Positions 1,048 through 62,743 of a stretch of DNA of 64,000 bases are shown piece after piece; within the stretch, counting starts at the first letter, position 1, and every line of letters starts with the position of its first letter. A program made the position numbers and the translations under genes. The stretch is taken from positions 1,674,001 through 1,738,000 of the forward strand of contig NZ_AP027080.1 in NCBI RefSeq assembly GCF_030295405.1. Reading direction: 5' to 3'. The notes under the pieces are model-generated. The model did not search any database and was not told the origin of the DNA. It was given only the letters and a program-made list of their open reading frames with translations. The DNA comes from Mesoterricola silvestris. Lineage in GTDB: Bacteria; Acidobacteriota; Holophagae; Holophagales; Holophagaceae.

Positions 1048-1821
1048 ATGCGGACTCTGGTCCTTTCGGCAGCCATGGCGGCGTCGCTGCCCGCCCTCGC
1101 CCAGGCCCCCGGCGCCTGGTACCTGGACCTGCACCGGGTGGCGCCGACCCTGGAGGGGAACTACACCGGCATGCAGGACGGCAAGCCGGTCAATTTCGAT
1201 ATCGTCAAGGATCTGGCCCTGGCCAAGGACGGCGCGAAGGTGGGGGTGGGCCTGGAATACCAGGGGCCCCGCTTCGGCCTCGAGCTTGCCGTGGAATCCC
1301 AGGACTACCTGGGGTCCAATCTGATCACGCGGGATGTCACCATTTCCGGCCAGACCTGGAACGCCCAGGCCACCGTGGCCACCTCCGTGAAGGTGACCAA
1401 CTACACCGGGAACTGGACCATCCGGTTCATGCGGACGCCCGGCTTCTGGATCGGCGTGGATCTGGGGGTGCGCGGCACCGCCCTGGATCTCAAGGCCACC
1501 GGAACGAGCTACCTGACAGGCCTCACCTCCCAGGCCTCCTTCAAGTCGGGCCTCCCCATGCCCCAGCTGGGCCCTTCGGTGGGGTACTACGGCCTGGAGG
1601 GCCGGTTGGTCCTCCGGGGCTACTACCACTACCTGGGCTACAAGGGCGCCACGTACCGGAACGCCGGGGCCGACGCGCGCTTCTTCCCCCTCCCCTGGCT
1701 TGGCGTTCGGGTCTTCACCGCGTCGGAGTCCTGGAAGGTGCCCACGGACAGCATCTCCAAGGACCTGGCCATCGAGCTGGACCGGACGGGCACGGGCTTT
1801 GGGCTTGTGCTGAAGTTCTAG
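1048..1821 (+). CDS. Outer-membrane beta-barrel-like protein
   Basis: The protein has 257 residues and a clear signal peptide, MRTLVLSAAMAASLPALAQA, with cleavage expected after AQA. The mature part consists of alternating polar and hydrophobic strands (for example VGVGLEYQGPRFGLELAV and LVLRGYYHYLGYKGA) and ends in phenylalanine (GFGLVLKF), the classical C-terminal signature recognised by the Bam machinery. No enzyme motif is visible. It starts 16 bases after the lipoprotein gene, with GGGAGG as ribosome-binding site. Its substrate, if it is a channel, is unknown. The TAG stop lies inside a CTAG that begins a 24-base copy of a dispersed repeat end (see the repeat at 1818). Confidence 0.65.
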   Translation: MRTLVLSAAMAASLPALAQAPGAWYLDLHRVAPTLEGNYTGMQDGKPVNFDIVKDLALAKDGAKVGVGLEYQGPRFGLELAVESQDYLGSNLITRDVTISGQTWNAQATVATSVKVTNYTGNWTIRFMRTPGFWIGVDLGVRGTALDLKATGTSYLTGLTSQASFKSGLPMPQLGPSVGYYGLEGRLVLRGYYHYLGYKGATYRNAGADARFFPLPWLGVRVFTASESWKVPTDSISKDLAIELDRTGTGFGLVLKF

Positions 1822-1841
1822 CCCGACATTCCGACCCATCC
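1818..1841 (-). repeat. Single copy of the CTAG-ended repeat terminus
   Basis: The 24 bases starting with the CTAG at 1818 match, in inverse orientation, the conserved right ends at 25762-25790 and 50395-50423, and match the left end at 25415-25439 directly. The shared core is TTCCGACCCA about 8-9 bases after CTAG. Here CTAG contains the stop codon of the preceding gene. No partner end or long palindrome is visible in the following 200 bases, so this may be a solo remnant. Confidence 0.45.
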
Positions 1842-1842
1842 G

Positions 1843-16528: not shown

Positions 16529-16590
16529 GGGCGCTCCAAGGCCGAAGAGGCGATCAACCAAGGATAGCCTCTGGACCCGCCCGGACGGCC

Positions 16591-16757
16591 ATTCCTTATC
16601 CCCTTCATCCCCTTCATCGGCGTCCATCCCCGTTACCGCAGGGCCAAGGCCAGGATGGGTCGGCGCCAGCGGATCACGCCCGCGCCGTCCCAGACCATCG
16701 CTGGCCCCGCGGAAACGGGGATGGACGCCGATGAAGGGGATGAAGGGGATAAGCAAT
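16591..16757. repeat. Long palindromic intergenic element (family 1), copy A
   Basis: Arms at 16591-16645 and 16703-16757 are 55 bp each and complementary with about three mismatches. They contain the tandem CCCCTTCATCCCCTTCATC and the inner block GCAGGGCC / GGCCCCGC. The 57-base centre holds a second stem (GGTCGGCGC with GCGCCGTCC). Copies B, C and D share the arm motifs and inner stem. The element occupies about half of the 329-base gap between hydC and the MipA-like gene; the rest of that gap (16758-16857) shows no gene. Confidence 0.8.
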
Positions 16758-16857
16758 GCCATCGGGTCCCATCCCCAGACAGAAACCTGGCCGGAGATCC
16801 AGGACGGCGTTCCCACGCGCCGCCCCGGGCCTCCGGCCATTCTCGGGATCCTTCGGG

Positions 16858-25414: not shown

Positions 25415-25790
25415 CTAGTCCATTTTTCCGACCCACTCCAGCTATCACTACCGAAGCCAGCACATCGTCTTCCCATGAAAACTACAGCCTTCCCCCTTCG
25501 CCAGGAATGACCTGGGTTCGGCGCTTCATCCCCTTCATCCTGATCATCCGATTCATCCCTGTTCCAGCAGGGCCATAGCCGGGATGGGTCGGGGCATGCA
25601 GAGCAACTACGCGCCGCCCCACCCCGGCGCTGGCCCTGCGGGAACAGGGATGAATCAGATGGACTGGATGAAGGGGATAGAAACCGGATCGAATTCGGAT
25701 CGTGAATTCCGGCGAGTTGCCCCGACCGAAAATCCGTGCGATTGGACTTACGGTTTTATGAGGTGGGGTGGGTCGGGGAAGTTGGGCTAG
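25415..25790. mobile_element. MITE-like segment with inverted CTAG-ended termini
   Basis: The left end (25415-25439) begins CTAG and contains TTTTTCCGACCCACTCC. The right end (25762-25790) reads GGGGTGGGTCGG then AAGTTGGGCTAG, an imperfect inverted repeat of the left. The interior holds the long palindrome copy B and no coding frame. CTAG at both outer ends would fit a Tc1/IS630-type TA target duplication within CTAG. The nature as a transposable element is inferred; no transposase is in the window. Confidence 0.4.
25527..25679. repeat. Long palindromic intergenic element (family 1), copy B
   Basis: Arms 25527-25575 and 25631-25679 (49 bp each) pair with about five mismatches. They share CCCCTTCATCC, ATTCATCCCTGTT and GCAGGGCCA with the other copies. 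The centre has the inner stem CCGGGATGGGTCGG with CCGCCCCACCCCGG, nearly identical to copy C. Confidence 0.8.
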
Positions 25791-25818: not shown

Positions 25819-25860
25819 AAACGCTGGGGCGCTGAGGGCTCGCTGGGGCGCTGGGGAAAG
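25819..25860 (+). repeat. GC-rich dispersed repeat (family 2), copy 2
   Basis: The copy starts AAACGCTGGGGCGCTGAGGG and ends CGCTGGGGCGCTGGGGAAAG. It is almost the exact reverse complement of copy 3, 83 bases further on, so the two could form a long hairpin. Confidence 0.7.
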
Positions 25861-25943
25861 GCATACCCTGGGTGCTCTCCCCGAATTCGTGTCCTGGGTC
25901 CCTCCCGGGGTTCCTGCCGCCCTTCCTTAGGCCTGCTCTCCTG

Positions 25944-25985
25944 CTTTTCCCAGCGCCCCAGCGAGCCCTCAGCGCCCCAGCGTTT
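25944..25985 (-). repeat. GC-rich dispersed repeat (family 2), copy 3
   Basis: This copy lies in inverse orientation to copy 2. On the plus strand it starts CTTTTCCCAGCGCCCCAGCG and ends CAGCGCCCCAGCGTTT. It is nearly identical to copy 4 at 57147. Confidence 0.7.
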
Positions 25986-50118: not shown

Positions 50119-50169
50119 GAGCCTGGCCATCACGAGAGAGGCTGGGGATTTCTCCGATCGAGGCTATCC

Positions 50170-50320
50170 ATCCCCTTCATCCCCTTCATCCGATTCATCC
50201 CCGTTCCAGCAGGGCCAGCGCCGGGATGGGTCGTGACATGCCGATCAACTTAGCGCCGCCCCACCCCGGCTAGGGCCCTGCTGGAACGGGGATGAATGAG
50301 ATGAAGGGGATGAAGGGGAT
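50170..50320. repeat. Long palindromic intergenic element (family 1), copy C
   Basis: Arms 50170-50216 and 50274-50320 (47 bp) are complementary with only about two mismatches. They contain ATCCCCTTCATCCCCTTCAT and ATTCATCCCCGTTCCAGCAG. The centre holds CCGGGATGGGTCG pairing with CGCCCCACCCCGG. It is the most perfect of the four copies. Confidence 0.85.
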
Positions 50321-50394
50321 GAAGCACCGGCCCCAGGTCCTTCCCGGCGAGTTGCCCCGACCGGTATTCCCCGCGAACGGAGATCTGGTTTATT

Positions 50395-50438
50395 GGATGG
50401 GGTGGGTCGGAAAGTTGGGCTAGAATTCGCTCCGACCC
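50395..50438 (+). promoter_or_regulatory. Repeat terminus plus inverted repeat upstream of polyphosphate phosphotransferase gene
   Basis: The 29-base terminus ending CTAG (50395-50423) is shared with 25762-25790. GGGTCGGA (50404-50411) and TCCGACCC (50431-50438) are a perfect 8-bp inverted repeat separated by 19 bases and centred on the CTAG, ending 18 bases before the start codon. It could be an operator overlapping the promoter or a footprint of the mobile-element end. Confidence 0.35.
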
Positions 50439-62468: not shown

Positions 62469-62512
62469 CTGGTATGGACAAAACCCGCTTTCGTCACGGG
62501 ATGGGTGGGCTT

Positions 62513-62663
62513 CATCCCCTTCATCCCATGCATCCTGTTCATCCCTGTCAGGCAGGGCCAAGGCTTCATTGGGTAGGCGCTTGCGGGTAATGCATGCGCC
62601 GACCCAAGCCATCGCTGGCCCTGCGAGACAGGGATGAACGCCGATGGGGGGGATGAACAGGAT
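62513..62663. repeat. Long palindromic intergenic element (family 1), copy D
   Basis: Arms 62513-62560 and 62616-62663. The inner 23 bases (TTCATCCCTGTC to GCAGGGCCA) pair almost perfectly, the outer parts less well. The centre has GGCTT, GGGT and GGCGC pairing with GCGCCGACCCAAGCC. It is the most diverged copy. Confidence 0.7.
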
Positions 62664-62743
62664 TGGGGATCCTTGCCCTTGCGCTACGCACGCTTTCCCC
62701 GGTGTTCAAGGGTTCTGTCACCCCTTCCTAAAAGAACCGACTC

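Follow-up and report, generated by a model that had tools for sequence, protein, structure and literature searches.

The four long palindromes A to D, dispersed over the window (the whole stretch of 64,000 nucleotides that was analysed), are probably descendants, without an open reading frame (ORF), of a small selfish hairpin element with a GxxExxY gene that was captured by IS5-family transposons. The ordinary part of this finding is a new IS5-type family of MITEs at CTAG, whereas the unusual part is that the core of these MITEs belongs to a widespread ORF-in-hairpin class, whose arm cores track the clade of the associated nuclease.

Four palindromes of a dispersed hairpin family

Four long palindromes in separate gaps had been reported in a preliminary description of this DNA, and all of them are real, with coordinates that match within a few bases those given by a palindrome finder (A to C) or by a profile (D):

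16590 to 16758, forward strand: palindrome A, a type-1 hairpin with tandem TTCATCCCC arms, a 'solo' copy without MITE ends (palindrome finder)
25524 to 25682, forward strand: palindrome B, a type-1 hairpin within a complete MITE (palindrome finder extent 25528 to 25678)
50167 to 50325, forward strand: palindrome C, a type-1 hairpin (palindrome finder extent 50169 to 50321)
62510 to 62664, reverse strand: palindrome D, a type-1 hairpin without MITE ends, in the gap between an MFS-like gene and sfsA (profile match)

The arms of A to D are inverted repeats of TTCATCCCC units with tandem cores of about 7 bp, which in this type-1 hairpin read GGATGAA/TTCATCC at a spacing of 9 bp. The hairpin is polar, its apical stem TGGGTCGGCGC...GCGCCGCCCCA being found in one direction only. 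Predicted folds are very stable in the case of C (-128 kcal/mol, z = -13.1) and D (-104 kcal/mol, z = -7.4), with none of 200 shuffles equalling either of them. The motif GGGATGAA occurs 19 times in the window versus 2.3 expected. The shorter GCAGGGCC was rejected as a family marker on its own, being too frequent (48 matches in the window versus 17 expected) and replaced by GGCCCCGC in the right arm of A.

Compensating differences between arms, which had seemed present among the four copies, do occur above the level of shuffles in 38 aligned type-1 copies, with double-sided changes in 50 cells versus 22 and pairing in 95.0% of the cells versus 92.9%, but the effect is modest and many pairs are invariant and thus uninformative. 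The proposal that the homogeneity of the two arms is tied to structure obtains the same modest support from this covariation test. The location of the palindromes stands as first described, since A to D lie outside called genes, each of them downstream of at least one gene 3' end; all four sit between protein-coding genes and none in a 23S rRNA helix. Genes were called by a simple codon-usage script, and single boundaries may be off.

Further copies are present in this genome and in the same genus. A covariance model recovered at least 77 distinct places in the genome, among the matches listed, as well as related copies in other members of the genus, and a profile search recovered 25 full or near-full type-1 copies in 1.264 Mb, window included. 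Extrapolated from this sample to the genome size of 4,994,678 bp, the type-1 family has roughly 100 copies in the 5-Mb genome. The intergenic copies (n = 24) occupy 14 convergent, 10 co-directional and no divergent gaps, the background being 84 convergent, 309 co-directional and 128 divergent gaps. At the place orthologous to that of A, relatives G004 and G005 have no such hairpin and hold about 0.95 kb of other sequence. A further type-1 hairpin of this genome (G000:C1:1107206-1107363) lies in a gap that in G004 (L292) holds an unrelated hairpin with CTCGGCG arms, and this gap is a possible insertion hotspot.

A MITE inserted at CTAG

Palindrome B at both ends, and C at one, are bordered by the terminal repeats of a MITE of about 380 bp with ends of the form CTAG-CCCAAnnTTCCGACCCACCCC:

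25415 to 25790, no strand assigned: complete MITE with palindrome B, 376 bp, CTAG at both ends and inverted terminal repeats
25415 to 25439, reverse strand: left terminal repeat of MITE B, CTAGTCCATTTTTCCGACCCACTCC
25766 to 25790, forward strand: right terminal repeat of MITE B, GGGTGGGTCGGGGAAGTTGGGCTAG
50399 to 50423, forward strand: right MITE terminal repeat downstream of C, GGGGTGGGTCGGAAAGTTGGGCTAG
1818 to 1842, reverse strand: decayed MITE end, its CTAG overlapping the stop codon of the upstream gene

No matching left terminal repeat was found for C, and neither A nor D has a terminal inverted repeat (TIR) above background within 400 bp. Comparison of flanks placed the end of the conserved sequence beyond the hairpin at GGGGTGGGTCGGAAnnTTGGGCTAG on both sides. 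The TIRs, of about 24 bp, accompany 8 of the 25 sampled hairpins on both sides and 6 on one side, 11 having none. The 1.264 Mb contain five strict TIR pairs, and each of them encloses a hairpin. Over the genome, 38 sites match the MITE end with at most 3 mismatches (none in a reversed-pattern control), and 29 of the 30 examined adjoin a hairpin, the single site without an intact one being the remnant at position 1818 of the window.

Empty sites were found in relatives for two copies. In the case of the 702-kb copy (M702), G004 has a precise empty site, where the flanks meet at one CTAG, and G005 a near-clean one; in the case of the 146-kb copy (M146), G001 has a near-clean empty site, with CTAG and without the element. 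These empty sites, together with the ends and the CTAG at both of them, indicate that the type-1 element is a MITE with CTAG duplication. Duplication of PyTAPu, in most cases CTAG, is known from IS5 (PMC5493358). The type-1 MITE contains no transposase gene and is shorter than about 500 bp, and no transposase copy with its exact ends was seen in this genome at the 30 TIR sites examined.

CTAG is about 9-fold depleted, with 404 occurrences in 1.2 Mb where base composition predicts 3557. Of the 404, 126 overlap the stop codon of a called gene, and 13 of 22 sampled TIR ends likewise fall on one. Many of the palindromes, clearly B and probably C, ride on a reduced transposon with the rare CTAG as its insertion site, often at a stop codon. 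Since the MITE often lands on TAG stop codons, the neighbouring genes survive, and the same target accounts for the presence of MITE-borne copies at gene ends and never in divergent gaps.

The type-1 apical stem GGATGGGTCGG resembles the inverted MITE terminal repeat GGGTGGGTCGG, as if each half were a small TIR-bounded unit. Two MITE-like sequences that form a pair (G000:C1:140461-140735 and 577529-577801) have perfect terminal repeats of 35 bp, CTAGGAGCCTGTC..., which also start with CTAG.

GxxExxY genes in the loops of related hairpins

The weaker matches of the profile (type 2) are split into halves around a GxxExxY gene of the same genome, and such halves flank intact GxxExxY genes at L098-L101. 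The product of the hairpin-loop gene matches TIGR04256 with 136.6 bits (cut-off 35) and PF13366 PDDEXK_3 at 2.8e-38, and the hairpin-loop gene is thus a full member of this family. The DxnExK residues are conserved in the protein, and its AlphaFold model (pLDDT 96.7) has a nuclease-like order of elements, with weak fold matches (E about 1e-3) to PD-(D/E)XK exonucleases and Cas4-like nucleases; a single-domain PD-(D/E)XK nuclease fold is predicted. PADLOC gave no match to the protein as a known defence gene, and a sequence search gave no match to a solved structure. Searches by family names and arm sequences retrieved no description of the hairpin context of GxxExxY genes from a literature that excluded most subscription journals.

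An IS5-type insertion sequence with a pair of transposase ORFs contains the hairpin-gene unit at L098 and at L099. A GxxExxY gene of G001 is flanked by an arm that shares 88% identity with the left half of C, GGATGAAGGGGATAAAGGGGAT arms surround another one in Geothrix (L325), and arm cores of the GGATGAA type, as in A to D, occur around GxxExxY genes at L112, L325 and other loci. A to D themselves are without the gene, which is present in the homologous type-2, G001 and sister-family copies. The descent of type 1 from a gene-bearing form rests on this homology of the arms and on the sister family described below; no direct intermediate that would link a GxxExxY copy to the type-1 hairpin by deletion was found. 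At many places of G001:C1 (e.g. L134 and L137-L145), an IS5-type element carries a GxxExxY hairpin with CGCGGAGG arms; this element gives about 50 matches, in many of which the gene is cut short in the same way (profile positions 1-53), as amplified internal deletions.

The sister family is represented in the window by two features:

25819 to 25985, no strand assigned: fifth palindrome, adjoining B and absent from the preliminary description, an ORF-less hairpin of the CGCTGGGGC-arm family
1960 to 2020, no strand assigned: fragment of a CGCTGGGGC-arm hairpin, beside the decayed MITE end at 1818-1842, both of them likewise absent from the preliminary description

Its gene-bearing copy (G000:C1:777456-778004) corresponds to the fifth GxxExxY gene, between AAACGCTGGGGCGCTGAGGACTCGCTGGGGCGCTGGGG arms and their complement, and the palindrome search gave gene-less copies, with loops of 13-152 bp, at seven places of the 1.2 Mb sampled and at one in the window. 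Some of these loops retain portions of the gene-bearing copy of graded length, the longest of 182 bp, before the sequence passes abruptly into the opposite arm. They are direct evidence that internal deletion yields gene-less palindromes, in the sister family and not in type 1 itself. Two unrelated arm families in this genome thus each have gene-bearing and gene-less forms.

Other long inverted repeats were noted in the same genome:

G000:C1:244250-244659, 395694-396115, 518343-518868, 675514-675939 and 1116761-1117229: third family of very long inverted repeats, with arms of 91-120 bp around GACGCAGGCAAGCTGCGTC and loops of 200-290 bp
G000:C1:344619-344906, 667720-668116, 918473-918798 and 1166499-1166691: further long palindromes, possibly of a different MITE family, in which GCAGCAGCGAGCTGCTGC-like and CCGACCCACCGG motifs occur

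The arrangement extends well beyond this genus. With 260-bp flanks (longer ones being blurred by IS copies), a strong inverted repeat spans the GxxExxY gene at 79 of 127 loci, nearly all of them from Acidobacteriota, versus 4 with swapped partners and none after shuffling; far flanks, in a subset of 54 loci, gave no inverted repeat. By this test a third of the GxxExxY loci are without arms. The arm cores are tandem motifs of about 7 bp (CACAGAG, CACGAAG, CACCAAG, CACAGAT, CGCAGAT, CACCGAT, GGATGAA and others), and their type tracks the nuclease clade, GLxE proteins going with AG cores and GFxE proteins with GAT cores (Fisher p = 3.8e-9; Mantel r = 0.455, 0 of 500 permutations), the AG and GAT classes having been set after part of the first data set had been viewed, so that the out-of-sample test is that of the second set, which covers one clade. 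This second set comprised 80 clade B loci from named genomes of many phyla, of which 78 were assessed. Arms were found in 51 of the 78, with cores of the predicted GAT type in 48 and of the AG type in none, and far flanks gave none in 63. The swapped control was high in this set (19 of 78), because the arms of unrelated hosts resemble each other. Near 112 GxxExxY loci of other genera there was no IS5-type transposase like that of L098, and the hairpin-plus-gene unit is therefore independent of IS5.

Origin of the palindromes and likeness to known systems

The complete element, of about 0.5-0.6 kb, is a long stem whose arms are built of short tandem cores and whose loop holds a GxxExxY gene; loss of this gene by deletion would leave what looks like a perfect palindrome. 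In this genus, IS5-family transposons have probably captured the hairpin, and the resulting MITE, made of the hairpin, terminal repeats of about 24 bp and subterminal DNA, inserts at CTAG and duplicates it, presumably through a DDE transposase acting in trans. Outside the genus, the gene-plus-hairpin unit, without an IS5 transposase, would presumably spread by itself. The nuclease would recognise the tandem cores of the arms; the intervening sequences that encode S23p are likewise hairpins whose loop holds an ORF. We infer mobilisation of the MITE by an IS5-type transposase, recognition of the arms by the nuclease, movement of the hairpin on its own, mobilised by that nuclease, and a selfish rather than useful role. 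The 11 of 25 type-1 hairpins without MITE ends, A and D among them, oblige us to assume another route or a decay of the ends.

Among the options offered in the preliminary description, that of a non-autonomous mobile element is the one supported, both by the CTAG MITE, with its TIRs, duplication and empty sites, and by the homology to the GxxExxY hairpin. It would be simpler to regard the family as a plain IS5-derived MITE with the hairpin as an internal part, the likeness to GxxExxY hairpins being incidental or due to a past insertion without a continuing role. The TIRs, the CTAG duplication and the empty sites fit such a MITE, and a hairpin at nearly all TIR sites is what an integral part would give. 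This account is nevertheless unlikely in view of the copies that lack TIRs, of GxxExxY genes that, in other genera, lie between the same arms with no IS5 transposase, and of two unrelated arm families in one genome that are both gene-bearing and gene-less. Compared with the IS5 family and its MITEs, the likeness lies in the two-ORF IS5-type transposase of the GxxExxY-carrying insertion sequence, the CTAG duplication (PMC5493358) and the short TIRs; the difference is a centre formed by a 155-bp hairpin unrelated to transposase sequence, with no autonomous copy with exact type-1 ends found.

Retention by the host at gene ends, as a structured RNA or as a bidirectional terminator, would agree with the strong RNA folds, with some covariation and with the lack of copies in divergent gaps, but it is improbable. 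The MITE copies are placed by CTAG insertion, often on stop codons, and a terminator is not needed, their location at gene ends following from that target. Moreover, three relatives (G002, G004 and G005) have the MFS-sfsA gap without D (155 bp), the 702-kb and 146-kb copies are absent from otherwise conserved loci of relatives, and no U-run follows the stem in A to D. The search for a curated Rfam 15 family gave no match above the gathering score in the window, and this result, with the lineage-specific presence of the hairpin and its near-symmetric palindrome, speaks against a conserved structured RNA. An origin as REP/REPIN-like elements moved by a RAYT (HUH Y1 transposase), suggested by high-copy intergenic palindromes lying mostly downstream of genes as REPs do (PMC3733652), is largely refuted and most improbable, as this genome has no Y1_Tnp (PF01797) match while control genomes were positive, REPs, of 20-40 bp, are several times shorter than this stem, and the gene that goes with it encodes a PD-(D/E)XK protein.

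As a system, the captured GxxExxY hairpin does resemble REP/REPIN-RAYT pairs (REPtrons) in its many intergenic palindromes, in a presumed dedicated enzyme gene flanked by the same repeats and in the way that the enzyme and the type of repeat vary together (compare PMC8266576); it differs in the absence of a HUH transposase, in its long tandem-core stems and in the PD-(D/E)XK fold. The plan of an ORF in a hairpin is also that of the S23p-encoding intervening sequences (IVS) of 23S rRNA, such as the one of Coxiella burnetii. This IVS, of about 430 nt, has an S23p ORF looped out of a stable stem, 28-bp terminal inverted repeats and tandem GACAGAT heptamers at the edge; it is excised by RNase III and is considered selfish, with an ORF prone to deletion (PMC4990558). 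A small ORF in a hairpin loop with tandem heptamers is common to both, whereas the hairpins described here are dispersed between genes at high copy number instead of lying in rRNA, and their ORF encodes a GxxExxY protein of the PD-(D/E)XK fold where the IVS has a four-helix bundle. A to D are outside the IVS family as defined, not being in rRNA. The stem may have an IVS-like role at the RNA level, and by analogy with the IVS this would be a plausible reason for the tolerance of such insertions in transcripts.

A wider proposal, which we put forward tentatively, is that GxxExxY and S23-like proteins could be two branches of one widespread selfish ORF-in-hairpin class, in which the protein would recognise the cores of its own stem and drive the copying of gene-bearing and gene-less hairpins, in the manner of a REPtron with PD-(D/E)XK in place of HUH, the rRNA IVS being the part noticed so far. 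The finding as a whole provides a context and a testable substrate for two common protein families that are otherwise merely named, and links the intervening sequences of rRNA to intergenic hairpins that form a large population and have mostly gone unnoticed. From the arm cores, which are specific to the clade, a recognition target can be predicted for each nuclease, and the MITE layer, with insertion at CTAG and often exactly on stop codons, spares the adjoining genes.

S23-like (four-helix-bundle) genes of the TIGR02436 family, absent from this genome and abundant in the phylum, lie between inverted repeats with heptamer arms at 22 of 25 loci in Acidobacteriota (L390-L418), versus none with swapped partners or in far flanks. 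Their arms are perfect tandem heptamers, such as AGCTATC, GCAATAG or GACCTGG, and there are many copies per genome.
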